Origin: Chlorobiota bacterium
GTDB taxonomy: Bacteria > Bacteroidota > Bacteroidia > Bacteroidales > Marinilabiliaceae
Length of the DNA: 64,000 bases
Assembly: GCA_013153405.1 (NCBI GenBank)
Contig: JAADEM010000050.1
Span: 1 to 64,000, forward strand
Direction: 5' to 3'
Of the stretch, positions 18,579 through 40,977 are shown in pieces (the stretch's first letter is position 1; every line of letters begins with the position of its first letter). The position numbers were made by a program, and so were the translations under genes. Below the pieces are notes generated by a model. It had not been told where the DNA came from, made no database searches, and saw only the letters and a list, made by a program, of their open reading frames with translations.

Positions 18579-19931
18579 TTATTTTTTATTACGTGGAAGT
18601 GTGAAATAAAAAACAGAACCTTCCCCTTTTTTAGATTTAACATGAATCTTTCCTCCAAGCATTTCAACAATTCCTTTAGATATAGACAACCCCAGACCAG
18701 CTCCTTTAACTCCCGAAATAATATCATTCCGATTTGCTTTAACAAACCTGTCAAATATTTTACGCTGATCTTTTTTACTGATACCATCACCGGTATCTTT
18801 GACATAAAACTCCACTTCGTCTTTATGTACATTGAATCCGACTCTTACCTCACCTTTTTTTGTAAACTTTAATGCATTATTAATAAGGTTTATCAACACC
18901 TGCTTTAACCTCTGCTCATCAGTTACAATAGTCAAATCATTATCATTCCTTTCAAATATAAGCTCAACATTCTCATATTCCTTAATTACAGGAGTATAAA
19001 GCATCTCAAGATCTTCAAACACTTTCTGAAGCGACACTTCACGTTCATAAATCTTAAGTTGTTTTGTATCAAGTAACGAAACATCTAAGATATTCTCTAT
19101 GATATTCATCAGATATTGGCCGCTATCGTAGATTGTCTTAACATAATATTTTGCTTCATCTACAGTAATCTCAGGCTGATTAAGAATAAGGTCGGAGAAA
19201 CCAAGAACAGCATTCATTGGTGTTCTTATTTCGTGGCTCATGTTTGCCAGAAAAGATGTTTTAAGTTTATCCGATTCTTCGGCTTTAGTCTTGGCCTCTG
19301 CCAATCGGATAATATTCTCGTGCAGAAACTTACGCAAACGCTCTTTATGTCTTACAGTCTTATCAAGATTATCTACAATCAGGCTAAGCACAAACGAAAT
19401 GGAGCTTATAAGCAATACATTAATACCAACAAGAATAAATTGCCTCGTTCCGTACAAATTTATAGCCATATCCTGCATACAGCCCATAAATATCAGTATC
19501 GTCAAAACCACAAGAACGATCATTGTGGTTATGATACTGAAAACTGTTCCTCTAATACCAAAAAATACTGCAGCCAACATATTAAATGCCACAAGGTACA
19601 TTACTCCGGCACCTTCAGGCCCTACTATCAAAAGAAAAGATATACCTAAAATCAAAGGCAATAAAACAAAGGCCACAATCCTTTTTTTCAAAGAAAGGAT
19701 TTTATGCCACAATGTAACGATCAGCATCAGGAAGTAACCGGCTAAATCAACAGCAAGCAAAACATAATCATGTTCTTTTACAGACCCATAAACTGACATT
19801 AACAAAGCTATCGTTCCCACAATTATAGTTATGAGGACAAGATAATTAAACAGCTTCTCCCTCATATACTCCAGGCCGTCAGAAGGCCTGAATACTGTAT
19901 CAGACAATATCTTATCCAGCCCCGGTTTCAT
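18579..19931 (-). CDS. Membrane sensor histidine kinase
   Basis: A 450-residue kinase. About six membrane helices fill residues 28-185. A short coiled coil leads to the HisKA domain with the phosphorylated histidine at about residue 233 (NMSHEIRTPMN). The ATPase domain shows N (NLINNALKF), G1 (DTGDGIS), F (IFDRF) and G2 (GAGLGLSIS) boxes. No PAS or receiver domain is seen and no response regulator is adjacent. The start overlaps the stop of the YeeE/YedE gene by 4 bases. The signal may be sensed by the membrane part, and the partner is unknown. Confidence 0.93.
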   Translation of the reverse strand: MKPGLDKILSDTVFRPSDGLEYMREKLFNYLVLITIIVGTIALLMSVYGSVKEHDYVLLAVDLAGYFLMLIVTLWHKILSLKKRIVAFVLLPLILGISFLLIVGPEGAGVMYLVAFNMLAAVFFGIRGTVFSIITTMIVLVVLTILIFMGCMQDMAINLYGTRQFILVGINVLLISSISFVLSLIVDNLDKTVRHKERLRKFLHENIIRLAEAKTKAEESDKLKTSFLANMSHEIRTPMNAVLGFSDLILNQPEITVDEAKYYVKTIYDSGQYLMNIIENILDVSLLDTKQLKIYEREVSLQKVFEDLEMLYTPVIKEYENVELIFERNDNDLTIVTDEQRLKQVLINLINNALKFTKKGEVRVGFNVHKDEVEFYVKDTGDGISKKDQRKIFDRFVKANRNDIISGVKGAGLGLSISKGIVEMLGGKIHVKSKKGEGSVFYFTLPRNKK

Positions 19932-20959
19932 TCTGTGTCCCGGCTCTGTTTCTTACCATAAAATACTTTTCCTGTCAAAAGTAATCCCGTAAAGACAAAT
20001 ACAGCAAACACCAAACTACTGAATGCCAACTGCATTCCTCCCGAGATAATATGGCCACTGGTACACCCGCCAGCCATTCTTGCTCCAAACACAAGTATAA
20101 ATCCACCTGCAAATGCCCATAATGCCCTGTTATATACAGAACCTCCCTTTGTATATTTCCATCCGGAATAAATCATTCTGAATTTAAAATCTTTTTTTAT
20201 CAAAGAAAACACAAAACCTGCCAAAAGAGCTCCGGTGAGAAACACCAGTTCCCATAATCCAGGTTTTGTTATTTTCTCAAAATAACTGTTATTGGTTAAT
20301 CCGACAATACGATCGCCCAGGTATGGAAATGCTGTAGATGCACCTATAGGCCGGTTTGAAACGGCAGTGAGAAAAACAACCGAATTAAGAATAGCCAGTG
20401 CAATTCCGGAATAAAGCCATCTCATATCTGATGTTTTCTCTTTTCTGTGCAAAAACATCGCTACTGAAATAAATGCCACCCCGATTACAATAACAAGGAA
20501 GCCGTACAGAAAACCGGAGCCTCCGGTGATTGATGCCAATGATAGTTTTCCAAGATCGGGTCCCAAAACACCCTCTATTGAAGGCAAAAGAAGAGTAAAA
20601 ACGACACCGCCGGATAATCCTCCAACAATTCCAACCATTGCATCAAGAGCTCCCTCTCCGGCAGAAACAAACAGTGTTCCCGGGCAATAACCCAAAATTG
20701 CCATACCCGCTCCGAAAAGCAACCCTCCTAATATTATTCCTCCCGTCATAAACGGTTTAACATGAAATTCTGCCAAGCCGATACCGATCTCCAGCGCCAG
20801 AAACATTACCCCGACACCAATAGTCACAGCAATAGCTTTAGGAACAGTAAAATCAGTCAGACGGGCAGCACCGCTGATTGTATCAAATTTGTTCAGTCTT
20901 CCATAAACCAATATGGCACCAAATAAGAAACCGAGTAAACCTGTAATTAAAGCAACCAT
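19928..20959 (-). CDS. YeeE/YedE family sulfur-compound transporter
   Basis: A 343-residue membrane protein with two homologous halves of the YeeE/YedE fold. Characteristic motifs are GYCPGT near residue 90 and GGCTSGH near residue 310, where the cysteines line the pore for thiosulfate or related sulfur species in studied relatives. The two halves are joined into one chain here. Coupling to a sensor kinase by a 4-base overlap is unusual and suggests the transporter or its substrate is linked to signalling. Confidence 0.88.
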   Translation of the reverse strand: MVALITGLLGFLFGAILVYGRLNKFDTISGAARLTDFTVPKAIAVTIGVGVMFLALEIGIGLAEFHVKPFMTGGIILGGLLFGAGMAILGYCPGTLFVSAGEGALDAMVGIVGGLSGGVVFTLLLPSIEGVLGPDLGKLSLASITGGSGFLYGFLVIVIGVAFISVAMFLHRKEKTSDMRWLYSGIALAILNSVVFLTAVSNRPIGASTAFPYLGDRIVGLTNNSYFEKITKPGLWELVFLTGALLAGFVFSLIKKDFKFRMIYSGWKYTKGGSVYNRALWAFAGGFILVFGARMAGGCTSGHIISGGMQLAFSSLVFAVFVFTGLLLTGKVFYGKKQSRDTE

Positions 20960-24483: not shown

Positions 24484-26277
24484 CTATTTCTTAGAGTTAA
24501 GGTAATTGTCTATACCTACGGCAGCCTTGTGTCCGTCGGCAATACCATGAATAACGTCAGGGCCAACAACAATATCACCACCTGCAAATAACCATTCTAC
24601 AGAAGTCTGGTTATACTCGCTAATGAGATATCTGCCACGAGGTCCGCGTTCAAGTTGTTCGTCAATCTCTTTTGGTATATATGACAAATCAGGAGCTTGT
24701 CCAATAGATTCTACAATCATATCACCTTCGAAGAATTTCTTCTGGTTCTCATCGAATTTAGGATTGAATCTATGATCCTCATCAAAGACAGACAGCACTT
24801 TAACGACGTGCAGACCTTTTATTTTTCCATCTACAATTTCAATTTCCTTTGGTCCCCATCCCGGATCGATAGTTGCACCTTCTTCACGAGCTTCAACAAC
24901 CTCTTCGCGGTCAGCAGGCATCTCTTCTTCACTTTCTAGCGATGTTGTAATAATCTGTACCTTTCCGTATTTGGCTCTTTGCAAACGTGCAAGAGAACGA
25001 GTGATATCCATGGCAACATTACCACCACCGATAACCACAATTTTCTCAGGAACCATAATCTCTTCACCTGCGGTAATCTTACGCAACAGATCAATTGACT
25101 GAAAAACATGTTCATGATCAGAACCAGGAATACGAGTTGAACGTCCGAGATGCAGGCCGGTACTTACAAATACAGCATCGTAATCCTTCTGTAATTTTTT
25201 AAACATCTCCTCATCAACAGTTGTGTTTGTTTTAAGCTCAACACCAAGTGAGAGAATGTAATTCACATCTTTGTCTATCTGATCATAAGGAAGACGATAC
25301 TCAGGAATACCGTAGCGCATCATACCGCCGGGCTTATCCAGTTTCTCGAAAATGGTAACGTTGTGGCCAAGCAATGAAAGGTAATAAGCGGCAGAAAGTC
25401 CGGCAGGACCGGCACCGATAATGGCAACCTTCTTGTCGTCTTTGTATATCTTTTTGGTATCAAGAATTTCGTGATACTGCTCAGCAGGAACCTGGTCAGC
25501 TATATAACGCTTAAGCCAGCGAATAGAAAGGGGATCTCCGTTAACACCAACAGAACAAACTGTTTCACACTTATGAGTACAGATACGTCCGCAAATTTCG
25601 GGAAGCGGGTTTGTTTCGTAAAGAATTTTCAACCCTTCCTCCATATCGTCGTTACGTACTGCTTTGATATATTCAGGAATACCCATATGTGCAGGACATG
25701 TTCCAATACAGATACCGCACTCAACGCAGCGGTCTGCCTCTTGTTGTGCCTGCTCTTTTGAGTAACCTTTAACGAATTCGATGAATGAATCTCCACGCTC
25801 TTCAGGTCCGAGCTCTTCCATCTTAACACGCTCCTGCGGATAGAAATGATAGTTCGGCTCCGGCTTTCTCCAACCTTCTTCCTTCTTGTACCAGTCCTTC
25901 TCATCAACTCCCGGAATGAAACGGAAATTATCAGGATCGGTATCTACCCACTTGAACTCGTTGGTCAGACGGAGAGAGTTTGTTGTACAGATATCAACAC
26001 AAAGAGCACACCAGCAGCAACGTCCGTAATCGATCTTCGGACGGAGTCCACTGTCACCGTCTTTAGTCTCAATACCTTCAACGGGAACAAGGTCGATGGC
26101 TTCATTTTCACAAATTGCCTCACATGTACCACAACCTATACATGTTTCCACATCATTGTCGTGGAAACCGCGGTAACGAGGAGCACCTTCCCTGCTCAAC
26201 GGATCTTTTATCGTTACAGGATCCTTTACAACTCTGGACCAGGCCGTAAAAGGCGTTAATATATCTTTTAAGTTCAT
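24484..26277 (-). CDS. NuoI-like ferredoxin fused to GltD/NfnB-like flavoprotein
   Basis: A 597-residue fusion. Residues 46-56 and 87-97 are two CxxCxxCxxxC motifs of an 8Fe ferredoxin like NuoI/MbhN. After a linker, residues 184-241 hold the GltD-type cysteine region (C184, C187, C190, C194 and C229, C233, C237, C241). The FAD site is IIGAGPAG (287-293 region), and the pyridine-nucleotide site IGGGNVAMD starts at 416. The NADPH-specific YRR of GltD is absent (ITTSLESEEEMP instead), favouring NADH. It is the last gene of the operon, so it should feed electrons between NAD(P)H and the iron-sulfur chain of the NuoB/C/D-like arm. A pure glutamate-synthase role is unlikely, as no large subunit is present. 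Confidence 0.85.
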   Translation of the reverse strand: MNLKDILTPFTAWSRVVKDPVTIKDPLSREGAPRYRGFHDNDVETCIGCGTCEAICENEAIDLVPVEGIETKDGDSGLRPKIDYGRCCWCALCVDICTTNSLRLTNEFKWVDTDPDNFRFIPGVDEKDWYKKEEGWRKPEPNYHFYPQERVKMEELGPEERGDSFIEFVKGYSKEQAQQEADRCVECGICIGTCPAHMGIPEYIKAVRNDDMEEGLKILYETNPLPEICGRICTHKCETVCSVGVNGDPLSIRWLKRYIADQVPAEQYHEILDTKKIYKDDKKVAIIGAGPAGLSAAYYLSLLGHNVTIFEKLDKPGGMMRYGIPEYRLPYDQIDKDVNYILSLGVELKTNTTVDEEMFKKLQKDYDAVFVSTGLHLGRSTRIPGSDHEHVFQSIDLLRKITAGEEIMVPEKIVVIGGGNVAMDITRSLARLQRAKYGKVQIITTSLESEEEMPADREEVVEAREEGATIDPGWGPKEIEIVDGKIKGLHVVKVLSVFDEDHRFNPKFDENQKKFFEGDMIVESIGQAPDLSYIPKEIDEQLERGPRGRYLISEYNQTSVEWLFAGGDIVVGPDVIHGIADGHKAAVGIDNYLNSKK

Positions 26278-26385: not shown

Positions 26386-27582
26386 TTATCTCTCAATTTC
26401 CGGAGGACAGGTTTGCAATGAAACCATTAATGCGTGTACATCTGCAACATCAGCACCAACAAGCATATCTTCAAGCAATGCAACTCCGTGGGTGTAACTT
26501 GGTCCGCGAAGATTTACACGACGAGGCTTATCACTTCCGTCGGTTACATAGTACATTCCGTATTCACCCCGGCCACTTTCAAGACGAACATAAGTTTCTC
26601 CTTTAGGTATCCTCCAGTGAAGTACATTTGGCATGTTTGCTCTGATATCTCCTTTCTCTGGCATCTTGGCCATTATCTGGCGAAGAAGGTCGACTGTCTG
26701 TATAAGTTCCTGCCAACGCACCCATGTTCGGGCATAAACATCACCATCGGTATCTGTGGGAGGATCAAAATCAAGCTGATCATAGTACAAATACGGATCA
26801 TCCTTTCGCACATCCCGCTTAACACCTGAAGCACGGGCTGTAGTTCCAACTATACCGTATTTATCAACCATTTCAGGAGTAATAACCCCAAGTCCTATTG
26901 CTCTTTTCTTGAACACGGCATTATGGAACATAAGTTTTTTAATGCGGACAATGAAATCGTCAATCTCTTTAAGATTATCCTCGAGGCGGGCTTTGAATCC
27001 GTCAGGAAGTAATCCTCGAACGCCTCCTGGAATGATGTACATGTGATATACACGGCCTCCAGTTAATTCTTCGAAACGGTCAAGAATAAGGTCACGCAGA
27101 TAAACACCCCATTGAACTCCTAGTCCGAGAGCAAAAGTACCCCCCTGACCCGGAACACCACGAAGCAAACCCTGCAGACGTGCCATCTCAAGCGAAAGCA
27201 TTCTGAGCCATTTTGCCATTTCCGGCACTTCTTTGTCATATCCAGAAAGCTGCTCTGTACATGTAGCAATCAGATACTCGTTAGTGTCAGGCTCGGCCAC
27301 ACACATACGAATACTCGTAGGAAACCCCTGAACATAAAGGCGTCGCTCAATGAGCTTCTCAAAACCACGGTGCAGATATCCAACATGAGTTTTGGCTTTT
27401 ACAACAGTGTTACCTTCAACCCATAGCTCCATAGCCATGTTACCGGTAACACCCGGGTGGTTAGGCCCAAGCCATATCTTCTGATATTTTTGCGATGACA
27501 GGTCAATTTCCGCCCCAATCTTTGCTCTTTTCGAGGGCAGTTTGCTTTCATCTGGCTCAAATCCTAAAAACTTATTTATCAT
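26386..27582 (-). CDS. NuoD/MbhL-like 49-kDa subunit lacking the [NiFe] ligand set
   Basis: A 398-residue protein of the complex I 49-kDa / [NiFe]-hydrogenase large-subunit superfamily. It has the conserved GPNHPGVTG near residue 40 and HRGFEKL near 71. Hydrogenases need two CxxC motifs; here they read C94-VA-E97 and C392-PP-E395, so the first Cys of each pair is kept and the second is Glu. That rules out a standard [NiFe] site. Length and order place it beside the NuoC-like gene, which it overlaps by 11 bases. It probably holds the quinone- or redox-coupling pocket of the pump. Confidence 0.88.
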   Translation of the reverse strand: MINKFLGFEPDESKLPSKRAKIGAEIDLSSQKYQKIWLGPNHPGVTGNMAMELWVEGNTVVKAKTHVGYLHRGFEKLIERRLYVQGFPTSIRMCVAEPDTNEYLIATCTEQLSGYDKEVPEMAKWLRMLSLEMARLQGLLRGVPGQGGTFALGLGVQWGVYLRDLILDRFEELTGGRVYHMYIIPGGVRGLLPDGFKARLEDNLKEIDDFIVRIKKLMFHNAVFKKRAIGLGVITPEMVDKYGIVGTTARASGVKRDVRKDDPYLYYDQLDFDPPTDTDGDVYARTWVRWQELIQTVDLLRQIMAKMPEKGDIRANMPNVLHWRIPKGETYVRLESGRGEYGMYYVTDGSDKPRRVNLRGPSYTHGVALLEDMLVGADVADVHALMVSLQTCPPEIER

Positions 27583-28132
27583 TGTCTTTTCTTTTTGCTG
27601 TTACCGGTTGATTCGGATAAAGTTTCTCCTGCATATATGTTGCCGGGTCATATGTTTTTCTACCCGGACGCGGGAAGTATGTCTTTTCCGAATATTCTTT
27701 AGTATTAAACTCTCGACGCATATGAGGAATATCATCCCAACCTTCGAGAACAAAATTTTCATCTACTCTCGGGCTTCCCGGGAAATCAATTCCAAATGCC
27801 TCATGAAGTTCCCGTTGATAAGTCCATATCTGTTTCCATAAATGATGTGCGCTCTCCATAACAGGATTTTCGCGATCGATATATGTTTTAACACCTATGT
27901 CGATTTTAGTATCTGGATTGTGCAACAGATATAACAACTGAAATTTACCTTCTTCCATCCAGTCCACACAACTCATCATCACAAAGTGGGAAAAGCCTTC
28001 GTAATCCCGAAGCCATGTTACGGCATCAATTGCAAGGTCTTTTGCAACAGTAACAAAAGCCAGACGTTCGCGCTGAACGGTCACATCCTCTGCATTGTAC
28101 TTCTGCTTTATTTTGTCTAATATTTCGTTCAT
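27572..28132 (-). CDS. NuoC/MbhK-like 30-kDa subunit
   Basis: A 186-residue protein of the complex I 30-kDa family. Signature residues near the C-terminal half include WKQIWTYQRELHEAFGIDFPG and GWDDIPHMRREF, which pack against the 49-kDa subunit. No cofactor is expected. It overlaps the next gene, so translation is coupled. It is preceded by a 129-bp gap with two hairpins. Confidence 0.9.
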   Translation of the reverse strand: MNEILDKIKQKYNAEDVTVQRERLAFVTVAKDLAIDAVTWLRDYEGFSHFVMMSCVDWMEEGKFQLLYLLHNPDTKIDIGVKTYIDRENPVMESAHHLWKQIWTYQRELHEAFGIDFPGSPRVDENFVLEGWDDIPHMRREFNTKEYSEKTYFPRPGRKTYDPATYMQEKLYPNQPVTAKRKDNDK

Positions 28133-28261: not shown

Positions 28262-28984
28262 TTACCAGTTGTAATCCGGCATGTTCCAGTCCTTAACTAT
28301 TTTCTTCTGGTTCGCTTTGTACCAGTCGAAATTTCTTGCATATTCATTAGCTTTCTCCGCTTTACCGGCTTTAATAAGCTCTTTCAGCTTGCCAAAACCT
28401 GCAAGAAGCGCTTCGGGACGAGGCATACAACCTGCAATGTAAACATCAACAGGAATATAATGATCAAGACGATTTATTGTACTGTAACTATCGTAGTACA
28501 TACCTCCGTTTATTGTACATGAACCAAGTGCAAGCACGTACTTTGGCGACGGCATCTGCTCATAAGTTCTGATAACTCTTTTAAGCGTTTTTACCGACAG
28601 ATAACCTGAGATTATGAATGCATTTGATTGCCTTGGTGTAGGTCTCATCTGAACACCAAAACGGAACATATCGAAACGAGGTGTTACAAGAGGAGGAATC
28701 TCAATACTACCGCAACCTGTTCCGAATCCCAACACCCATATACTCTCGGCACGTGCCCAGTTAAGGAACTTCTCTACGATACCATTCCGCGGCTTCTCCT
28801 CCTCGGGACGGGCTCCGCTGAAATAATCATAAATAGGATTAACTTTTATGATAGAGCCGTCGGGGGCAACCACTTCTCTCTCTTCATCTTCTGGGCGAAC
28901 AAACTTCTTTCCTGAGTTCTTAGCATTTGCTTCGGAACGTGCCAGCATTTCGCTCACCTTCGAGTTCATATCTTTTTCAGACAT
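28262..28984 (-). CDS. NuoB/MbhJ-like small subunit
   Basis: A 240-residue protein of the PSST/NuoB family, with an N-terminal extension of about 75 residues. It should hold the terminal iron-sulfur cluster (N2-like). Three cysteines are seen: C91 (FGTGCGSIE), C156 (LALGSCTINGG) and C186 (IAGCMPRPE). Complex I uses an adjacent Cys pair at the first site; here the second is Gly92. A three-Cys site with another ligand, or a different cluster, is therefore possible. It is followed by hairpins and the NuoC-like gene. Confidence 0.88.
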   Translation of the reverse strand: MSEKDMNSKVSEMLARSEANAKNSGKKFVRPEDEEREVVAPDGSIIKVNPIYDYFSGARPEEEKPRNGIVEKFLNWARAESIWVLGFGTGCGSIEIPPLVTPRFDMFRFGVQMRPTPRQSNAFIISGYLSVKTLKRVIRTYEQMPSPKYVLALGSCTINGGMYYDSYSTINRLDHYIPVDVYIAGCMPRPEALLAGFGKLKELIKAGKAEKANEYARNFDWYKANQKKIVKDWNMPDYNW

Positions 28985-28995
28985 TTTATATCTTT

Positions 28996-29910
28996 TTAGA
29001 AACTAAAAACTATTATTGCCAATACTCCTAATACCAGCGGAACTTTAAAGAACCATGTAATCGACTGTTCGATCTTGTAACGCGGGAATACCATTCCTAC
29101 AAAAACCGACCAGAAATATATCAGGAATGTTTTTACTATCAGTTCAGGCCAGCTTGTTGCTCCACCGAACACAAGGTTCATGAACAATACAGCCTCCATC
29201 ACATGAAGGATACTTCCGGCACTCTGCATGAAACCAAGATAAGTTCCTTCGTATTCGGTTGCAGGACCGATAAGGATCTCGTTAGGAGCTTTAACAAGGT
29301 TAAAGGGAGAGTGTCCCATTGCACCAAGCATTGCAAGAATTATTGCACCTGCTGCAAACGGATTAGTAAAAAGTACCCAGTTCTGGAAACCACCCTGTTG
29401 AGCTTCAACGATTTTGTACATTGAAAATGTATCATACTGAATAGCTATTGAAAGAATCGCCAGTGTAAGAGGCAGTTCAACAGCAGCATGTTGCGCCAGC
29501 CCTCTGGCAATACCCATTGCCGAATACGGATGACCTCCTTCTCCAGCACCCATTGCCATTCCAAGCATTCCGAACAGTTGAAAGTAAAGTATAAGTATCA
29601 GGTCGCCTTCGAATGAGAAGTTAGTCCACATTCCATTAGGGTCACCTGTGTAAATCAAAGGCATGAAAAACAACAGACCAATACCTCCGGTAAGACGGAA
29701 AACAGGTCCAAGATAATACATAACACCATGAGTGATAGTAGTACGAACACCAACACTTTTGAAAAAATTTATCCACGGCTGATAAAACGGGATGCCGATA
29801 CGTCCTGATACACGAGCACCAATCTTACGAAAAATTGCACCCATCAAGAAACCCCAGTTCCAAACAATGAACAGACCGAGGAGTGTATATCCTAATTTTG
29901 CGATAGTCAT
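28996..29910 (-). CDS. NuoH/MbhM-like membrane subunit
   Basis: A 304-residue membrane protein with about eight helices, the bridge between the redox arm and the antiporter arm. It keeps the family regions RVSGRIGIPFYQPWINFFK near residue 33 and GAMGHSPFNLVKAPNEI near residue 200, with charged residues used for quinone- or ion-coupled movement in relatives. It starts 5 bp after the fused antiporter gene ends and 11 bp before the NuoB-like gene, a tight operon. Confidence 0.9.
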   Translation of the reverse strand: MTIAKLGYTLLGLFIVWNWGFLMGAIFRKIGARVSGRIGIPFYQPWINFFKSVGVRTTITHGVMYYLGPVFRLTGGIGLLFFMPLIYTGDPNGMWTNFSFEGDLILILYFQLFGMLGMAMGAGEGGHPYSAMGIARGLAQHAAVELPLTLAILSIAIQYDTFSMYKIVEAQQGGFQNWVLFTNPFAAGAIILAMLGAMGHSPFNLVKAPNEILIGPATEYEGTYLGFMQSAGSILHVMEAVLFMNLVFGGATSWPELIVKTFLIYFWSVFVGMVFPRYKIEQSITWFFKVPLVLGVLAIIVFSF

Positions 29911-29915
29911 TTAAA

Positions 29916-32900
29916 TTATCCTCCTATTATTACGAAATAAGTTACTATAATAAACAACACAATATGTATAACATAAGACTGTCCGTTTCCGCTGTAAATT
30001 CGTCGTACTATACCAGCAGTATCGTGCAGGAAGTCTGACACTTTGTTCCACCACTTTTCAACAAGCGGAATTGTAGCAACCCACATAGCCTGATAAAGAC
30101 CTTCGAATACATTGTATGCCACATGAGTTGTTTCAGGACGTTCAGGACGTTCTCCTGAATATGTAATATCAAACTGTTTTACTTTATGCGCCTTGCGTGT
30201 TGAAATCATCAACAGTGCAGTTACCACAAGGAATGCGGCAATGATGGTAACAGCAACAGCTGTTCCTGCCCAATGTCCGTATTTAGTAAATGCTGTTCCT
30301 CCGTCCCAGGTAAGTTGTCCGTCCGGAAACCACTGTGCCACGATGTCTCCAAGCGGTTGAAGTACCCATTGCGGTTTAACCGAATAAACCATAATGCCTG
30401 CCAACAATGTATAAATCGGTATAAGGAACCAGATTGATATCTCTTTTACGTTACGGTGATTGTCTTTAAGTTGACCAAGGAAAATTGTATGAATCAGTCT
30501 CCACAGATACATGAATGCAATACCTCCCGAGAAGAACATTATAGCTCCCTGCAAGTACCAGCCTTTTTCAAGAATCGCATTGTAGAAAAGCCATTTCCCT
30601 GCAAATCCTGACAACGGCGGAACACCTGAAAGTGCAATGATACCGATCATCACGGCTGTAAATGCAAGAGGCATACGCTTGATAAGTCCTCCCATTTCGT
30701 ACATATTGTGTGTCTTAACACGAAGCACAACAGCACCAATTGTTAAGAACAGAACTGCCTTGTAAAGGAAGTGGTTCACTACATACGAGAAACCGCCGAG
30801 CCATCCGAGGTGAGACATCATTGCAAAACCAAGAACGATGTATCCCAACTGACCGATAGAAGAGTAAGCCAACAACCTCTTAGCATCCTCCTGGAATACT
30901 GCCATAAGGTTACCAGAAAAGGCCGTGATAGCACCAAGCCATCCGAGTGCGTAAGGCAGCCAGGGATAGGCATTGTTTTCGCCACCCATTCCAATAAGAG
31001 TAAGAACAATTCCGAAAACACCCGCTTTAAGCAGAATGGCAGATACCATAGGTGAAACATCACTTTCGGCCTCACCGTGAGCTCCCGGCAGCCAGATGTG
31101 TAATCCGAGTGCAGCAGTCTTGGTAAGGAAACCAACGATTAGCAGACCGTATGCCCAGTAAGGAATGTATGAAATAGAGTTGATAATGCTCATATCGTAA
31201 GACCCCTGACCTGCAAAAGCCATTCCTAATCCCATCAGCAAAGCATAAGCACCGCCTACTGAGAAGAGCATATAACTTAGTCCGTGAGGCATTGAACGCT
31301 TACCGCGAATGATGAGGAAGTAAGAACCTGCAGTCATCAGCTCCCAGCCAAAGAAGAACTGAAGAGTGTTCTGTGCTTCAATGATGGTGGTAAGTCCTGC
31401 GTACATCAGAAGAGCAACCGGATAAAATCCTGGACGTGTTCCCTTGTATGCATAACCTGCAATCAGGGTAAGAATACCTCCGATCATGAAAATTGCTTCG
31501 AAAACAAGACGAAGATTATCAAGATCAGGATAAATAGTATAGAAATAGAATGCCATTCCTATAATGGCAATAGTGTTCTTAATAAATACAGGAAGGAAAT
31601 CAAGAATGAAGATTGCTGCTACGAAAAACAACGGTATCCAGTTGATTGCAGCTCCTGCATCTGTATGTTGAGATGTGAAATATCCTGTTACGTAAAGGGC
31701 GATAGCCACAATACCAACGGGAAGTATTTTATTCCATTCTATTTTGAAGTCTTCGATATTCTCATTCTCACCTTTGATAGCATATCCAAACCAGCGGAAT
31801 AAATAAACAGCTTCCATCATTGAGCCGAAAAGGATAGCAACAACCCATGGAAGATTTCCTGTGTTAACTAGCTCCATCACAAGCTCCCACTTTGCAAAGA
31901 AAGAGGGGAACGGTGGGAATCCTATCAATGCGAAAATGAAAGTTCCCATCAGGAACAGGAAGTAAGGCTTTTTGCGTATAACAGCCCAATTCGCAATATC
32001 ATTTTGTTTCACGATACCGGCCAGCCAGAAAAGACCCGCTTTGGCAAAGTAGTGTGAGAACAGAATTCCGAATGCAACGTAAGGAGTATTATCACCGAGA
32101 ACATCTTTGAATCCGAGAATGATCATCAACAATCCTATCTGACCTATTGAAGAGTATCCCAGCAGACGTTTTGCAATTCTTTGTTTAAGGGCAAGAACAT
32201 TACTTCCCACGAATGATACAGCTCCGATAAGTGCTACCCAGTAATTCCACTCACTTCCGGCCATTTCGAGAAGTTTTGAAAGAACAAAATACATTGCAGT
32301 TGCTGTAGCTGCAGAAAGCATTGCTCCGATACCGGCATTTGAACCTTCATAAATATCCAGCCCCCATCCGTTGGCCGGGAATGATTTTAGTTCAAGAATT
32401 ATTGACACCATAATCAAAAGAAGTGCTACACTTCCACCCTTAAGGGCACCAATATTCGCAGCGGTAAGTCCGTCAATATTCAGAGTTCCGCTGTAGTAGT
32501 ATGCGAAAATGATACCCAACAGCAATACTCCGCTAATTATTCCGGTTGCAAGCATATATTTAAAACCTGCCTGTATTGACTTACCCGATTCGGTAAGTAT
32601 AACAAGACCGGCAGTAGCAATACTGACGATTTCGAGGAATACAAAAAGGTTAAAAATATCACGGGTCATTATTACAACATTCAAACCCATAATGAAAATA
32701 AGAAAAACCATCACAGCATGGTTTCCTGCTTCTTTCAGATTCCTGTACAGGTATATACCTCCCAACAGCCCTATAAAGTTCACAGCTGTGGTAAGAACAC
32801 TCTCGTTCAGTCCCATCAGAAGATTGATGGAAAACGGGGGCTTAAATCCTGCCGTAAAAATCTGTTGTGCACTTTCTCCGTTTATCAACCCGATTAACCA

Positions 32901-33038
32901 CGAGCCTGTTAAAACTCCCATCAAAGCTATTGCAGCCAGCATTAAAACAGCAGCCGCATCTTTTGCCTTTTTGGGAACAAACCCGAGGGCAAAGGCACCG
33001 CCAAGACCAATGGTTAGTATATGAATAGGTGAGATCAT
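29916..33038 (-). CDS. Double MnhD/NuoL-like antiporter subunit (H-H' fusion)
   Basis: A 1040-residue membrane protein that repeats the proton-translocating antiporter module twice in one chain. Half one (residues 1 to about 500) has ANGWGLDIYEGSNAG and LLGYSSIGQIG. Half two (about 510-970) has HIWLPGAHGEAESDVSP and LLAYSSIGQLG. Each half also shows the PPFPSFFAKW / VPPLSGFAGKW motif. In archaeal Mbx these are separate H and H' subunits, so this is a natural fusion. No frameshift or internal stop is seen. It supplies two of the likely ion channels. Confidence 0.9.
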   Translation of the reverse strand: MISPIHILTIGLGGAFALGFVPKKAKDAAAVLMLAAIALMGVLTGSWLIGLINGESAQQIFTAGFKPPFSINLLMGLNESVLTTAVNFIGLLGGIYLYRNLKEAGNHAVMVFLIFIMGLNVVIMTRDIFNLFVFLEIVSIATAGLVILTESGKSIQAGFKYMLATGIISGVLLLGIIFAYYYSGTLNIDGLTAANIGALKGGSVALLLIMVSIILELKSFPANGWGLDIYEGSNAGIGAMLSAATATAMYFVLSKLLEMAGSEWNYWVALIGAVSFVGSNVLALKQRIAKRLLGYSSIGQIGLLMIILGFKDVLGDNTPYVAFGILFSHYFAKAGLFWLAGIVKQNDIANWAVIRKKPYFLFLMGTFIFALIGFPPFPSFFAKWELVMELVNTGNLPWVVAILFGSMMEAVYLFRWFGYAIKGENENIEDFKIEWNKILPVGIVAIALYVTGYFTSQHTDAGAAINWIPLFFVAAIFILDFLPVFIKNTIAIIGMAFYFYTIYPDLDNLRLVFEAIFMIGGILTLIAGYAYKGTRPGFYPVALLMYAGLTTIIEAQNTLQFFFGWELMTAGSYFLIIRGKRSMPHGLSYMLFSVGGAYALLMGLGMAFAGQGSYDMSIINSISYIPYWAYGLLIVGFLTKTAALGLHIWLPGAHGEAESDVSPMVSAILLKAGVFGIVLTLIGMGGENNAYPWLPYALGWLGAITAFSGNLMAVFQEDAKRLLAYSSIGQLGYIVLGFAMMSHLGWLGGFSYVVNHFLYKAVLFLTIGAVVLRVKTHNMYEMGGLIKRMPLAFTAVMIGIIALSGVPPLSGFAGKWLFYNAILEKGWYLQGAIMFFSGGIAFMYLWRLIHTIFLGQLKDNHRNVKEISIWFLIPIYTLLAGIMVYSVKPQWVLQPLGDIVAQWFPDGQLTWDGGTAFTKYGHWAGTAVAVTIIAAFLVVTALLMISTRKAHKVKQFDITYSGERPERPETTHVAYNVFEGLYQAMWVATIPLVEKWWNKVSDFLHDTAGIVRRIYSGNGQSYVIHIVLFIIVTYFVIIGG

Positions 33039-33102: not shown

Positions 33103-33459
33103 TTACCATTTCAGGTCTTTGAAACTCTCAATGTCGAGTGATTTCTTCTCCTGATGAAGTCTCATGGCATATGCAAGCATAAGAGCTGTTACACCCAGTC
33201 CAATAACAATAGCAGTAAGAACTAGCGCCTGCGGAACAGGGTCTACAATCTTATGAGCAGTATCGGTAAGCAGTTCTTTTTTGTCAAGTATCGGAGCTAC
33301 TCCGCCTTTAACGAAAGCCATTGAAACCATTACAATGTGAATACCTGTATCAAACAATGAGAAACCGATAATGATACGGATAAGGTTCTTACGGGTCATG
33401 ATAGCCCAAAGCCCGGCAAGAATGATAAGAAATCCTGTAGTTATAGTTATATATTCCAT
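33103..33459 (-). CDS. MnhC/NuoK-like subunit
   Basis: A 118-residue protein with three membrane helices. The NuoK/MnhC signature GFSLFDTGIHIVMVSM near residue 32 and VDPVPQALVLTAIVIG near residue 72 are clear. It is equivalent to MbhG. It lies 15 bp after the MnhB-like gene and 64 bp before the double antiporter gene. Confidence 0.9.
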   Translation of the reverse strand: MEYITITTGFLIILAGLWAIMTRKNLIRIIIGFSLFDTGIHIVMVSMAFVKGGVAPILDKKELLTDTAHKIVDPVPQALVLTAIVIGLGVTALMLAYAMRLHQEKKSLDIESFKDLKW

Positions 33460-33474
33460 TTGTAAATCTTTTAC

Positions 33475-34164
33475 TTAATTATCTGCCTGAACCGATTTAA
33501 ACTTATGCAGAATGTTCGACAATTCGGCACCTACCTTCAACCCGACGAATGAATAAATTACCGGAATAGCCCCTGCACTGAATAACTCACCGAATTTTCC
33601 CAGAGGTAAAATTGCATTATCAAGAAATCCAAGTCCCAGGATTGCTCCGAAAGCAGCCAGCCCCACATAAACCAGTCCGGATACACTTTCAAGTGATTCG
33701 AAAAATTTATGGCTGAACTCCATATTCGGGAACGCCAGAAACATTAGAATAACAGCAGAAGCAATTACAGCACCTCCCTGAAATCCTCCTCCCGGTGTAA
33801 GGTGTCCGTTTATAAATATGTAGATACCAAGCATGGTAATTATCGGAATTAACAGCTTTGCCGCAGTTTTAAATATCTCACTGTTCTTTCTCAAGGTACG
33901 CTTATCCGATTCCTTTTTCAGAAAGAAAGCAATAATGGCGGCAGTAAGGAAAAGAATAGTAACCTCACCTAGTGTATCAAGTCCCCTGTATGTTACAACG
34001 ACAGCAGTTACAAGGTTTTGGGAGTTTACTTTTTCTATATTTTCTTTACTTGCATAAAACTGTGAAACCTCGGTAAGACCCGTACTTCCGTGGAAACTGC
34101 TGTAAAGCGGATAAAGCACACTTACGAAGGCTGCCAATATGAATAGTACTAAAAGCTTTTTCAT
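33475..34164 (-). CDS. MbhE-MnhB (MbhF) fused membrane subunit
   Basis: A 229-residue protein. The first 90 residues match the MbhE part, with VTYRGLDTLGEVTILF, and the rest is the MnhB/MbhF domain with HLTPGGGFQGGAV near residue 120. In many Mrp systems these domains are in MnhA's tail and in MnhB, so here they are merged and MnhA is missing as such. It is an integral membrane part of the sodium/proton antiporter arm. Confidence 0.88.
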   Translation of the reverse strand: MKKLLVLFILAAFVSVLYPLYSSFHGSTGLTEVSQFYASKENIEKVNSQNLVTAVVVTYRGLDTLGEVTILFLTAAIIAFFLKKESDKRTLRKNSEIFKTAAKLLIPIITMLGIYIFINGHLTPGGGFQGGAVIASAVILMFLAFPNMEFSHKFFESLESVSGLVYVGLAAFGAILGLGFLDNAILPLGKFGELFSAGAIPVIYSFVGLKVGAELSNILHKFKSVQADN

Positions 34165-34190: not shown

Positions 34191-34478
34191 TTACTTATTT
34201 GGTATCTCATCTATTTCATCACTTTCACGTCCCTCTTTATCGTTTTGTCTTATTCTGTTCAGGACGTAGAAAAATATGATGGTTGACAAACCGCTACCAA
34301 TTGCTGCTTCGGTCATGGCAACATCAGGTGCTGCAAGAAACAGATACATAATGGAAGCAAACAGTCCTACTGCACCAGTGGCAATAACCGCAACTATCAT
34401 TTTTTTATGATAGATAGCAATAAAGGACATTGCCAGCATCAGAATACCAAGTAATGTGGTTATAATTTTAAATTCCAT
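34191..34478 (-). CDS. MbhD-like DUF4040 subunit
   Basis: A 95-residue membrane protein with three helices and the conserved APDVAMTEAAIGSGLSTI motif of the MbhD family (DUF4040), found in the C-terminal part of MnhA in classical Mrp antiporters. A hydrophilic acidic tail follows. It is 26 bp from the MnhB-like gene. Confidence 0.88.
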   Translation of the reverse strand: MEFKIITTLLGILMLAMSFIAIYHKKMIVAVIATGAVGLFASIMYLFLAAPDVAMTEAAIGSGLSTIIFFYVLNRIRQNDKEGRESDEIDEIPNK

Positions 34479-34541: not shown

Positions 34542-34895
34542 TTATTTCTTCTCGTACTCAACCTTACGAGCTTTTGCACTAACCTTTAACTTATCAACAA
34601 CTGTCTTATCGGTAAAGGGTATCTTAATAAAGTAAGAAGCCCTTGCCAGAACATGCGAAGACACCGGACTGGTCATCATCACAAAAAAGATGAGCAATAC
34701 CAGTTTACCCCACCATCCGGGCATTATAAGAATAATTCCAAGCAGACTTAATATAGTACCCAGTGTTGTTGCCTTGGTTCCAACCTGCAGGCGATTATAC
34801 ACATCCGGCATTCGTAAAAGACCTATGGATGCCACAAGCAATATCAGCGAACCTGTCAGGGTTGTTATTGCTCCAATCAATTCCAAAATTTCCAT
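34542..34895 (-). CDS. mnhG: MnhG subunit
   Basis: A 117-residue Mrp G subunit: IGLLRMPDVYNRLQVGTKATTLG is the family core, with three helices. The ATG at 34895 (MEILELIG) is preferred. An upstream ATG at 34943 would overlap mnhF by 29 bases and add residues foreign to the family. It is 63 bp ahead of the MbhD-like gene. Confidence 0.92.
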   Translation of the reverse strand: MEILELIGAITTLTGSLILLVASIGLLRMPDVYNRLQVGTKATTLGTILSLLGIILIMPGWWGKLVLLIFFVMMTSPVSSHVLARASYFIKIPFTDKTVVDKLKVSAKARKVEYEKK

Positions 34896-34914
34896 TATTG
34901 CTATATTAAATTCG

Positions 34915-35175
34915 TTATAAACTCTTTTCCAAATACTTTGCAATGATTATCACAGCAAGAAATCCCAACAGACCATAGACAATAGCCACATCAAGATAGA
35001 TTTCCCTTTGGGTCACATATGAAAGAATAGCTATAAGAGCCAGAGAAGCAATAGACATCATATCAAATGCAATCACCCGGTCTACTGAAGTTTTTCCTTT
35101 CACGAAACGAATCATGGTAAGCCCGATGCTCAGCAGAATAATGGCAACAGCGACCTCTAAAATTGTATTAACCAT
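34915..35175 (-). CDS. mnhF: MnhF subunit
   Basis: An 86-residue, three-helix Mrp F subunit, with IRFVKGKTSVDRVIAFDM as the family motif near residue 23. It overlaps mnhE by 8 bases and ends 19 bp before mnhG. It is equivalent to MbhB. Confidence 0.92.
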   Translation of the reverse strand: MVNTILEVAVAIILLSIGLTMIRFVKGKTSVDRVIAFDMMSIASLALIAILSYVTQREIYLDVAIVYGLLGFLAVIIIAKYLEKSL

Positions 35176-35656
35176 AAATTACCTCCAAATATTTTTCAAA
35201 TTTTTCAACTATCTCTTTACTTGCACTTTTAATGTCCTCATCCTTTACATCAATCCAGTGAATAAAGAATGAATCATCTACAACATCCACAGTAAGTGTT
35301 CCCGGAGTAAGTGTAATTGAATTAGCCAGAAGCATACGTGCAAACTTTGATTTCAGCTTAGTTTTTACTTCTACAATACCGGGTTTAATCGGCAGTGCAG
35401 GATTAAGCACACGCTTAGTTACATCCAGGTTTGACTTTATCAGCTCCACCATAAAAACCCCGAGAAACCATATTGTGTAAAATATTCCTTTAGGGGTAAA
35501 ATTCATATCCTGAAACAGCTCACACCTTTTACACATAAAAAGACTTAAAAACACAGCTATAACGGCTCCAACCAACAGAATATCAGGCTGAAATGTATTG
35601 TTCAACAATACCCAAACAACCATCAGTATTAAAAAGGTAATAATAAAATTTTTCAT
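35168..35656 (-). CDS. mnhE: MnhE subunit
   Basis: A 162-residue Mrp E subunit. Two membrane helices are followed by a soluble domain with LLANSITLTPGTLTVDV, the family signature. It is the first gene of the operon and is equivalent to MbhA. A candidate promoter lies at 35736-35743, facing away from the Crp-family gene. Confidence 0.93.
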   Translation of the reverse strand: MKNFIITFLILMVVWVLLNNTFQPDILLVGAVIAVFLSLFMCKRCELFQDMNFTPKGIFYTIWFLGVFMVELIKSNLDVTKRVLNPALPIKPGIVEVKTKLKSKFARMLLANSITLTPGTLTVDVVDDSFFIHWIDVKDEDIKSASKEIVEKFEKYLEVIYG

Positions 35657-35908: not shown

Positions 35909-36601
35909 ATGAAAAAGGCGGGAAAAGAGGAGCTTACGAGAGAAATGACCGGTTGTTTTCAGAGACTGACTGACGAACAACTTCGGAAACTGGCGGAAAA
36001 CAGGGTACACCTGAAATACAATAAAAAAGAGATAGTAGCCAAACAGGGTGCCTTTGTTTCTCATATTATATTTATTAAGCACGGGTATGTAAAATTATAT
36101 ATTGAATCAGAAAGTGATGACAACAAGGACCTTATCATAAACATATTCGGCCCTAACCAGCTAATAGGTCTTTCATCCCTTTTCGAAAGAAACAAATATC
36201 AGTACAGTGTAAGTACACTTGTTCCGTCCGAACTTTGTCTTTTTGAAGTAAACGACATTAAAGAACTGATCGGATTAAACCCTGACTTTGCACTGGGTAT
36301 CCTGCAACGGTCGCACAAAAGCACAATTCATGCTTACAATCAAATGTTTAATCTTACGCATAAACAATTGAACGGAAGAATAGCAAGTGCATATCTGTAT
36401 CTTTCAAAACAAGTGTTCCAAAGCAAAAAATTTAAAATGATACTGACCCGTAATGAGCTTGCCAACTTCACTGCTATGGCAACTATGAGTGCAGTACGTA
36501 CTATTAACATGTTCAAGCAGCAGGGAATAATAAAAGAAGAGAACGGAGAAGTGGAGATTTTAAATGTAAACCGACTTGAAGAAATAAGCCGTTTCGGTTA
36601 G
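35909..36601 (+). CDS. Crp/Fnr-family transcriptional regulator
   Basis: A 230-residue protein with a cyclic-nucleotide-binding-like domain (residues 15-140) and a C-terminal winged helix (about 155-225; TRNELANFTAMATMSAVRTI is the recognition region). No cysteine cluster is seen near the N-terminus beyond C16, so it is not a classical Fnr iron-sulfur sensor. It is divergent from the ion-pump operon and upstream of the fumarate reductase genes. Its stop overlaps the convergent hydrolase stop by 4 bases. Confidence 0.9.
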   Translation: MKKAGKEELTREMTGCFQRLTDEQLRKLAENRVHLKYNKKEIVAKQGAFVSHIIFIKHGYVKLYIESESDDNKDLIINIFGPNQLIGLSSLFERNKYQYSVSTLVPSELCLFEVNDIKELIGLNPDFALGILQRSHKSTIHAYNQMFNLTHKQLNGRIASAYLYLSKQVFQSKKFKMILTRNELANFTAMATMSAVRTINMFKQQGIIKEENGEVEILNVNRLEEISRFG

Positions 36602-37525: not shown

Positions 37526-38221
37526 ATGAGTAACTTTCTTAGTTCTTCAATTGGGAAAAAGCTTCTGATGAGTATCACAGGGCTTTTTTTAGTGACATTC
37601 TTATTTATTCACTTATCCCTCAACGCATTATTGTTGGTAAACGATGGTGGTGAGATGTTTAATGCCGCAGCCCATTTTATGGCCACAAACCCCATTATTA
37701 AAATAATGGAACCCATACTGGCACTGGGCTTTATCATTCACATCTTCTATGCATCATTGCTAACACTACAAAACCAGAAAGCACGCGGCAAAGACCGTTA
37801 TGCTTCGGGCAACAGTACTCCGGATGTATCATGGGCATCAAAAAACATGTATATTCTCGGGGCAACCATACTTGCTTTTCTGGTAGTTCACATCGCCCAA
37901 TTCTGGGTTAAATTTAAAATCACCAAGGAATTAACACCTGTACACATCGACATTGCCGGTGTGGAGACCGAGGTTGAGAATGCCTATGCATTGGTTAATC
38001 AAACCTTCGGAATGTTATGGGTTGTTATTGTTTACGTACTCGGTTCCATAGGATTGGCATGGCACCTTTCTCACGGATTCTGGTCGGGATTACAAACAAT
38101 CGGATTCAGTAATACCATATGGAGAACCAGATGGTCTGTGATTGGAACAATAATTGCCTGGATATTCGGTTTGGGATTTTCTTTAATTGCAATATTGCAA
38201 TACCTCTTTTTTCAATCATAA
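37526..38221 (+). CDS. frdC: Fumarate reductase/succinate dehydrogenase cytochrome b subunit
   Basis: A 231-residue membrane protein with five helices, the b558 type that carries two haems and binds menaquinone. The histidines expected for haem are in FLFIHLSLNA, FIIHIFYAS, VVHIAQFW and LAWHLSHGFW. It is the first gene of a three-gene operon and anchors the flavoprotein and iron-sulfur subunits. Sequence alone cannot tell fumarate reduction from succinate oxidation, but the anaerobic context favours the former. Confidence 0.92.
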   Translation: MSNFLSSSIGKKLLMSITGLFLVTFLFIHLSLNALLLVNDGGEMFNAAAHFMATNPIIKIMEPILALGFIIHIFYASLLTLQNQKARGKDRYASGNSTPDVSWASKNMYILGATILAFLVVHIAQFWVKFKITKELTPVHIDIAGVETEVENAYALVNQTFGMLWVVIVYVLGSIGLAWHLSHGFWSGLQTIGFSNTIWRTRWSVIGTIIAWIFGLGFSLIAILQYLFFQS

Positions 38222-38243
38222 TTGCCAATAAATTCATATTGAT

Positions 38244-40184
38244 ATGACAAAGATAGATTCTAAGATTCCTGAAGGGCCTCTCGCCCAGAAATGGACTAAT
38301 TATAAGAACAATCAGAAATTGGTCAATCCGGCCAATAAAAGAAGATTAGATGTAATAGTTGTTGGTACTGGTCTTGCAGGAGCTTCTGCAGGAGCTTCAC
38401 TCGCAGAAATGGGTTTTAAGGTAAAAAGTTTTACCATCCAGGACTCACCCCGCCGTGCACACTCAATTGCAGCACAGGGTGGTATCAACGCAGCTAAAAA
38501 TTATCCTAACGACGGCGACTCTGTTTATCGTCTGTTTTATGATACAATTAAAGGCGGTGACTACCGTTCACGTGAAGCCAACGTTTACCGCTTGGCAGAG
38601 GTTAGTAACAGCATTATCGATCAGTGTGTCGCACAGGGTGTTCCCTTTGCTCGTGAATATGGTGGTTATCTGGCAAACCGTTCTTTTGGTGGTGCTCAGG
38701 TAAGTCGTACATTTTACGCCAAAGGTCAGACCGGACAGCAGCTTCTTCTTGGAGCATATCAGGCTCTGATGCGTCAGGTTCACGAAGGAAATGTTGAACT
38801 GCATACACGTACCGAGCTTGTAGAAATTGTTATTATCGACGGAAAAGCCCGTGGTATTATAACCCGTAATCTTATCACCGGAGAACTGGAACGTCATTTC
38901 GGACATGCAGTAGTAATTGCCTCCGGCGGATACGGAAACACATTCTTCCTTTCAACCAACGCAATGGGCTCAAATGGTTCGGCAGCATGGAAAGCATATC
39001 AGAACGGAGCTTTCTTTGCAAATCCTGCCTTCGTACAGATTCACCCAACATGTATTCCTGTTCACGGAGAATTCCAAAGTAAGCTTACTCTTATGTCTGA
39101 ATCACTTCGTAACGATGGCCGTATCTGGGTACCGAAAAAGAAAGAGGATGCAGAAGCAATTCGTGCAGGAAAACTCAAGCCAACCGAAATAGCCGAGGAG
39201 GATCGAGATTACTATCTCGAAAGAAGATATCCGGCTTTCGGTAACCTTGTACCCCGCGACGTTGCATCACGTGCTGCAAAAGAACGCTGTGATGCCGGCT
39301 ACGGAGTTGGTGCTACAGGACTTGCAGTTTATCTTGATTTTAAAGATGCAATTGAACGTCTTGGCCGTGATGCCATAGAAGCACGTTATGGTAACCTTTT
39401 CCAGATGTATGAAAAAATAGTTGATGAAAATCCGTATGAAACTCCAATGATGATTTATCCTGCCATACACTATACCATGGGTGGCCTTTGGGTAGATTAT
39501 GAGCTTCAGACCAACATTCCGGGATTGTTTGCAATAGGTGAGGCAAACTTCTCCGACCACGGTGCCAACCGCCTGGGTGCTTCAGCGCTTATGCAGGGAC
39601 TGGCCGACGGATATTTTGTTTTACCATACACTATCCAAAACTACCTTGCTGATGACATCCGTACTCCGAGAATGAGCACAGACCTTCCTGAATTCGAAGA
39701 AAAAGAAAAGAAAGTTAAAGATAGATTTAAGAAGTTATTAAGCATTAACGGAAAATATTCCGTAGACCACATACATAAAGAACTTGGCCATGTAATGTGG
39801 GATTTTGTAGGAATGGCCCGTAACAAAGAGGGACTGCAGAAAGCTCTTGACAGAATACTAGAGATAAAGAAAGAGTTCTGGACTAACGTTCGTATACCCG
39901 GCAAACTTGAGGGAATTAACCTTGAACTTGAAAAAGCCGGACGTCTGGCCGATTTCATCGAAATAGGTGAACTTATGGCACGTGATGCTCTCAACAGGGA
40001 GGAAAGCTGCGGCGGACACTTCCGTGAAGAATATCAGACAAAAGAGGGTGAAGCATTGCGCCGTGACGATGAGTTTGCATATGTATCCTGCTGGGAATAT
40101 AAGGGAGACGATAAAGAACCGGTTATGCACAAAGAAACTCTTAAGTTTGAGTACGTAGAGCTTAAACAACGTAACTACAAATAA
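38244..40184 (+). CDS. frdA: Fumarate reductase/succinate dehydrogenase flavoprotein subunit
   Basis: A 646-residue flavoprotein. FAD is expected to be covalently attached at H73 in [10 protein letters not shown]. The nucleotide-binding loop is [12 protein letters not shown] near residue 39, and substrate residues occur in [11 protein letters not shown] (near 267) and [10 protein letters not shown]. The length and insertions match the epsilonproteobacterial/Bacteroidota type. It is 22 bp after frdC and 37 bp before frdB. Confidence 0.96.
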
Positions 40185-40221
40185 TCAATCGGGTTAGTTC
40201 AATTATTAAACAGAAGATAAA

Positions 40222-40977
40222 ATGGAAAAAAATATAAATCTCAAATTAAAAGTATGGCGTCAGGACGGCCCTAAAGCAAAAGGCCGTTTTGAAACATACG
40301 AGGTTAAAAATATTTCTACCGACAGTTCTTTCCTTGAGATGATGGATGTTCTGAACGAACAACTTATCCAGGAAGGAAAAGAGCCGGTTGCATTCGACCA
40401 CGACTGCCGTGAAGGAATTTGCGGTATGTGTTCTATGTATATTAACGGACACCCTCACGGACCGGATGAAGACATAACAACATGCCAATTACATATGCGC
40501 AAGTTTAAAGACGGGGAAACAGTTACAATTGAACCCTGGCGTTCTGCAGCTTTTCCTGTAATTAAAGACCTTATGGTCAACCGGAATGCATTTGATGAAA
40601 TAATAGCTGCCGGAGGGTATGTTTCAGTAAGTACAGGTGGGGTTCCCGATGCCAACTCTATTCCTATTCCTAAGGAAGCTGCAGATGAGGCTATGGATGC
40701 TGCATCCTGCATTGGTTGTGGTGCATGTGTTGCTGCTTGTAAGAACGGTTCAGCAATGCTGTTTGTTTCTGCTAAAGTCAGCCAGCTGGCTTTACTGCCA
40801 CAAGGTAAGGTTGAAAGAGCACGCAGAGCAAAAGCAATGGTTGCTAAAATGGATGAACTCGGATTTGGTAACTGTACAAACACCGGAGCTTGTGAAGTTG
40901 AATGCCCCAAAGGAGTGTCAATAACCAACATTGCAAGGCTTAATCGTGAATATCTAATGGCCAAATTCAAAGATTAA
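40222..40977 (+). CDS. frdB: Fumarate reductase/succinate dehydrogenase iron-sulfur subunit
   Basis: A 251-residue protein with three cluster sites: 2Fe-2S ([10 protein letters not shown] plus TCQLH), 4Fe-4S ([11 protein letters not shown]) and 3Fe-4S ([14 protein letters not shown]). It carries electrons from quinol at the cytochrome b to the flavin. The operon ends at the strong terminator 41004-41034. Confidence 0.96.

Follow-up and report, generated by a model that had tools for sequence, protein, structure and literature searches.

Background

In the two CxxC motifs of [NiFe] hydrogenases, the first cysteine is a terminal nickel ligand and the second bridges nickel and iron. Relatives of these enzymes in which the motifs are incomplete have been described from archaea. 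Yu et al. (2020, PMC7684303) presented the MBS complex of P. furiosus as having lost two of the four NiFe cysteines, with C85 and C385 of the large subunit retained; C85A/C385A P. furiosus MBS reduced dimethyl trisulfide as the wild type did, and a three-cysteine proximal cluster was regarded as the catalyst. Homologues of MBS have also been tied to bacterial sulfur reduction and are among the closest known systems: in T. maritima, mbxA and yeeE were up-regulated in the presence of sulfur or thiosulfate (PMC9431562), and the sulfur-oxidising Riftia symbiont has been noted to carry a putative Mrp-Mbx (PMC11636981).

The DNA under study (hereafter the window) is a stretch of 64,000 nucleotides from contig JAADEM010000050.1 of a Marinilabiliaceae bacterium (assembly GCA_013153405.1). 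An earlier note, made from its sequence alone, had drawn attention to a NuoD-like subunit in which both CxxC motifs are changed to CxxE, and had proposed either a redesigned metal or redox pocket or a shared ancestral loss.

Identity of the large subunit

The gene (26386..27582) is read from the minus strand, the plus strand of the same interval having stops in frame 1, and encodes a NuoD/MbsL-like large subunit of 398 aa matched by PF00346. Its translation confirmed C-V-A-E at residues 94-97 and C-P-P-E at residues 392-395, the codons of which lie on the minus strand at 27292..27303 and 26398..26409, respectively. The whole protein has three cysteines, two of them within CxxE, and at least two CxxE motifs arose in 1.3% of trials when its own composition was shuffled. 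The pattern is considered non-random chiefly because of its conservation in the family, where residue 97 is Glu in 83 of 83 MBS-type sequences and residue 395 is Glu in 82 and Asp in one, more than on account of the shuffle.

The best PDB match was 6u8y_L, the P. furiosus MbsL (E 4.9e-85), and the same chain ranked first in a Foldseek search with the predicted structure (TM 0.85/0.91, 39% identity; model pLDDT 84.8, below 50 for residues 393-398). The best 50 matches listed by VIA-align, with Z near 43, were without exception chains of complex I or related NDH and do not discriminate. In the same columns, P. furiosus MbsL displays C85-V-P-E88 and C385-P-P-D388, so that the first cysteine is kept and the second lost at both motifs, the mark of MBS and MBX, exactly as for C94/E97 and C392/E395. 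On a maximum-likelihood tree, 83 MBS-type rows including MbsL formed one clade (SH-aLRT 99) apart from the complex I and hydrogenase rows; the tree was made quickly and its reference branches are long, so its deep order is not claimed. Judged by sequence and predicted fold, the protein is an MbsL-type large subunit, a bacterial relative of the MBS subunit. The half-lost cysteine motif is real and inherited, and has already been published for archaeal MBS. Since archaeal MbsL and the entire clade carry CxxE or CxxD, the proposal of a shared ancestral loss holds, and CxxE marks the MBS branch, which lies between hydrogenases and complex I.

Former [NiFe] cysteine positions

The large subunit was aligned (MAFFT) with E. 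coli HycE, P. furiosus MbhL and five Bacteroidales hydrogenase-type rows. The columns of C94, E97, C392 and E395 were those of the four CxxC cysteines of group 4 hydrogenases, each being Cys in 7/7 hydrogenase rows; C94-V-A-E97 fell on C-G-I-C of HycE and MbhL, and C392-P-P-E395 on C-Y-S-C of HycE and C-L-S-C of MbhL. A failure of C94 and C392 to superpose on the ligand positions, named in the earlier note as what would refute its observation, does not occur. As the second cysteine of each motif is the one that bridges nickel and iron, the residues lost here are precisely the two bridging thiolates.

The large subunits of group 4 [NiFe] hydrogenases (MbhL, HycE) are homologous, and C94 and C392 are common to both groups, but the hydrogenases possess all four cysteines in two CxxC motifs, which the present subunit does not. 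A functioning hydrogenase with altered ligands could be argued from the shared superfamily origin and from the two former nickel ligands that are kept. Such an enzyme is extremely improbable: besides the loss of two of four ligands, all 83 MBS-type rows have Thr where the hydrogenase rows have an acidic β1-β2 loop residue, HypD (PF01924), required as a NiFe maturation gene, was found in 0/7 genomes (the own genome, 93% complete, and six relatives bearing the complex), and NiFeSe_Hases (PF00374) was absent from the same own genome and six relatives, controls being positive in both searches. The only PF00346 proteins of the own genome were the large subunit of the window and a paralogue on contig C150. 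The claim that the complex is distinct from hydrogenases is thus borne out.

Its claimed separation from complex I stands only in part. Complex I NuoD/Nqo4 shares the fold, PF00346 and an acidic residue at the position of E395, whereas its rows have Asp or Glu at 94, Ser, Gly or Ala at 97 and Val at 392. C94, E97 and C392 therefore set the two apart; position 395 is Asp in 15/16 of the complex I rows with a residue there, and an acidic second position in the C-terminal motif is not a mark separating the large subunit from NuoD.

Partner subunit and quinone site

The adjoining NuoB/MbsJ-like subunit (28262..28984, minus strand) has cysteines only at 91, 156 and 186, a predicted set of ligands for a three-Cys proximal [4Fe-4S] cluster. 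Its top PDB match was 6u8y_J (E 3.1e-64), and its three cysteines occupy the MbsJ ligand positions C28, C93 and C123, a likeness to P. furiosus MBS accompanied by one difference: the non-ligating C25 of MbsJ is replaced by Gly, here and throughout the 77/77 bacterial rows. The three-Cys pattern was found in 77/77 MBS-type NuoB-like rows, while complex I rows display a tandem CC and hydrogenase rows a CxxC (as a sequence pattern).

The quinone-binding histidine (His38 of Nqo4) is Thr in 83/83 MBS-type rows and His in 17/17 complex I rows. The column of Nqo4 Tyr87 is not Tyr in the MBS-type rows either, but Tyr occurs in only 3/17 complex I controls and the column is not diagnostic. These observations bear on another possible explanation, namely an Fpo/Nuo-like variant of complex I that reduces quinone and receives electrons from NADH through an unusual module. 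The NuoD fold and an identity of about 30% to complex I 49 kDa subunits are in its favour, as is the fact that complex I NuoD was not found in the own genome, nor a separate one in the own genus. With the quinone His and the tandem CC of NuoB both missing, and with the large subunit clustering with MbsL on the tree, such a variant is quite unlikely.

Conservation of glutamates and cysteines

Among the 83 MBS-type sequences, the two glutamates and the two cysteines showed contrasting behaviors. C392 is replaced by Tyr in 26 rows and C94 by Ala, Ser or Thr in 11, all of them among the 26; parsimony on the tree required five changes at position 94, three at 392, one at 395 and none at 97. Loss of C94 was seen only where C392 is Tyr, in 2-3 independent events (counted as independent pairs on the tree), too few for a covariation test. 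His390 accompanied Tyr392 in 25/26 rows.

Loss of C94 and C392 in part of the family while the glutamates are kept indicates that selection retains the latter and tolerates the loss of the former. This comparative result adds to the published archaeal picture, and it is the opposite of what a cysteine-based redesigned metal site predicts. According to that proposal, C94, E97, C392 and E395 would form a catalytic site of two cysteines and two carboxylates, for example for Zn or Fe; the coincidence of the four positions with the [NiFe] ligands, and the occurrence of C,E,C,E or C,E,C,D in 57/83 sequences, agree with it. The substitutions at both cysteines are difficult to accommodate, as are the activity of C85A/C385A P. 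furiosus MBS and the fact that the available part of the same report describes no metal at that place (PMC7684303). A redesigned pocket built on the retained cysteines, as the earlier note had suggested, is consequently very improbable, and both it and the hydrogenase were rejected on the grounds of cysteine variability, published mutants and missing HypD.

The invariance of the acidic residues can also be understood as a catalytic role, E97 or E395 acting as a proton relay or binding the open iron of the proximal cluster as a fourth ligand other than cysteine, the more so as the NuoB-like subunit offers only three cysteines. For MBS, by contrast, sulfur reduction is proposed to need neither protons nor amino-acid residues, and the cysteines kept in MbsL are placed about 12 Å from the cluster (PMC7684303). 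An acidic residue 395 is moreover present in complex I, the cluster of which has four cysteines, and a catalytic glutamate seems unlikely. Purifying selection acts on E97 and E395, most likely, we infer, because they matter for how the cavity wall is built or for its electrostatics, and C94 and C392 are best read as vestigial.

One branch departs from the common pattern: in loci L079-L109, residues 390 and 392 of the former NiFe pocket are His and Tyr in place of Gln or Ala and of Cys, respectively, and position 91 carries an additional Cys. A changed substrate or proton chemistry is possible in this branch.

Operon organization

All genes of the operon are on the minus strand. It begins with two genes assigned to putative MnhE-like (35168..35656) and MnhF-like (34915..35175) subunits from their operon position and from homologues in L035-L112, followed by an MnhG/MrpG-like subunit (34542..34943; TIGR01300 above cut-off), an MbhD/MrpA C-terminal-like subunit (34191..34478), an MnhB/MrpB-like subunit (33475..34164) and an MnhC/MrpC-like subunit (33103..33459). 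Next is a double antiporter-like subunit of 1040 aa (29916..33038), an MbsH'/H-type fusion with halves at about 2-454 and 461-1035 which is split into two genes in loci L035 and L112. The NuoH/MbsM-like membrane anchor (28996..29910; NCBIfam NuoH model, E 7.6e-30), the NuoB-like subunit, a NuoC/MbsK-like subunit (27572..28132; NCBIfam NuoC models, E 5e-17, syntenic in relatives) and the large subunit come thereafter, and the last gene encodes a NuoI-GltD/NfnL fusion of 597 aa (24484..26277; PRK13984, E 4.8e-275, just below cut-off).

This order is shared by Bacteroidota, Chlorobiota, Delongbacteria, Spirochaetota, Calditrichota, Acidobacteriota and Pseudomonadota (including Thiothrix and Magnetospirillum), and the fusion comes after the large subunit at all loci that extend far enough to reveal it. 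A divergent Crp/Fnr-type regulator lies upstream of the operon (35909-36601), Crp-like genes being found at the same place in many relatives. Genes of a succinate dehydrogenase/fumarate reductase, identified by eye as b-type anchor, flavoprotein and Fe-S subunit, are also close to the operon (37526-40977).

A further likeness to P. furiosus MBS is the membrane arm, which is of Mrp descent and has two antiporter-like units. The bacterial operon differs from it in that the antiporter subunits are usually fused and in that the NuoI-GltD/NfnL fusion occupies the gene place of a stand-alone ferredoxin-type MbsN; owing to the absence of that stand-alone subunit, the complex is classified as MBS-like and not as MBS proper.

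The fusion comprises two N-terminal [4Fe-4S] motifs, an NfnL-type [4Fe-4S] domain and FAD and NAD(P)H domains, and its 17 cysteines are conserved among relatives. A YRR motif, tied to NADP(H) in work on DsrL (PMC7596348), is present in the NAD(P) loop of the C150 paralogue and of Spirochaete members. In the fusion of the window, the loop reads TSLE in place of YRR and contains a short insertion, which suggests a use of NAD(H) rather than NADPH.

Proposed function

The homology of the subunits, their motif states, the operon, the three-Cys cluster pattern and the absence of NiFe maturation are data of the present analysis. They are probably best explained by an MBS-like sulfur oxidoreductase that is linked to NAD(P)H, pumps ions and has a vestigial [NiFe] pocket; its substrate, direction and ion we infer. 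Electrons would pass between NAD(P)H, FAD, the Fe-S clusters of the fusion and the proximal cluster of the NuoB-like subunit, polysulfide or sulfane sulfur would react at the open iron of this predicted three-Cys cluster, and the Mrp-like membrane arm would link the sulfur chemistry to ion transport. A sulfur role is favoured by the YeeE-like gene beside the operon, the sulfur-related genes that accompany the paralogous C150 operon, the presence of Thiothrix among the relatives and the sulfur response of T. maritima mbx and yeeE. As regards the pocket, both second, bridging cysteines would have become acidic in the MBS ancestor, consistent with the Fe(CN)2CO unit having been lost, while the first cysteines, formerly terminal nickel ligands, would have been inherited and are disappearing from part of the family.

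P. furiosus MBS takes ferredoxin as donor and is without a GltD-like module, so that donor and energetics differ in the bacterial complex. By our own estimate, electron transfer from NADH to polysulfide yields little energy for pumping, and the bacterial complex may for this reason work in the opposite direction or have a different acceptor. The substrate may also be thiosulfate or some other sulfur compound.

A broader proposal can be put forward only tentatively and with considerable doubt, namely that a mesophilic and widespread branch of MBS in bacteria couples NADH or NADPH directly, by way of its integral NfnL-type module, to ion-translocating sulfane-sulfur chemistry on a [4Fe-4S] cluster with three Cys ligands, the bridging positions having become an essential carboxylate pair and the cysteines drifting away, with a Tyr/His pair replacing them in the branch of Thiothrix and Spirochaetes. 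Many bacterial phyla, known sulfur bacteria included, contain MBS-like complexes that carry an NAD(P)H module, and a role in sulfur metabolism is accordingly testable in cultured strains, e.g. of Thiothrix.

Sulfur-related neighbours and a second operon

A YeeE/YedE-like sulphur transporter gene (19928..20959, minus strand; PF04143, E 2.3e-27) lies downstream of the operon, near a CBS-domain gene. It is found beside the operon here and at only two other loci, L039 and L040, and its product is a possible functional neighbour, not a subunit. Of the YTD sulfur-disproportionation cluster, only scattered parts were seen (YeeE-like, TusA and DsrE-like genes).

The same genome harbours a second MBS-like operon on contig C150 (L035:790-12241), with a large subunit about 49% identical to that of the window, split antiporter subunits and a NuoI-GltD subunit of the YRR, i.e. 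NADP(H), type. It is followed by DsrE-like, TusA, FlpD and Hdr/Qmo-like genes and by a HydABC-type [FeFe] hydrogenase, the Qmo-like and hydrogenase names being given by eye.
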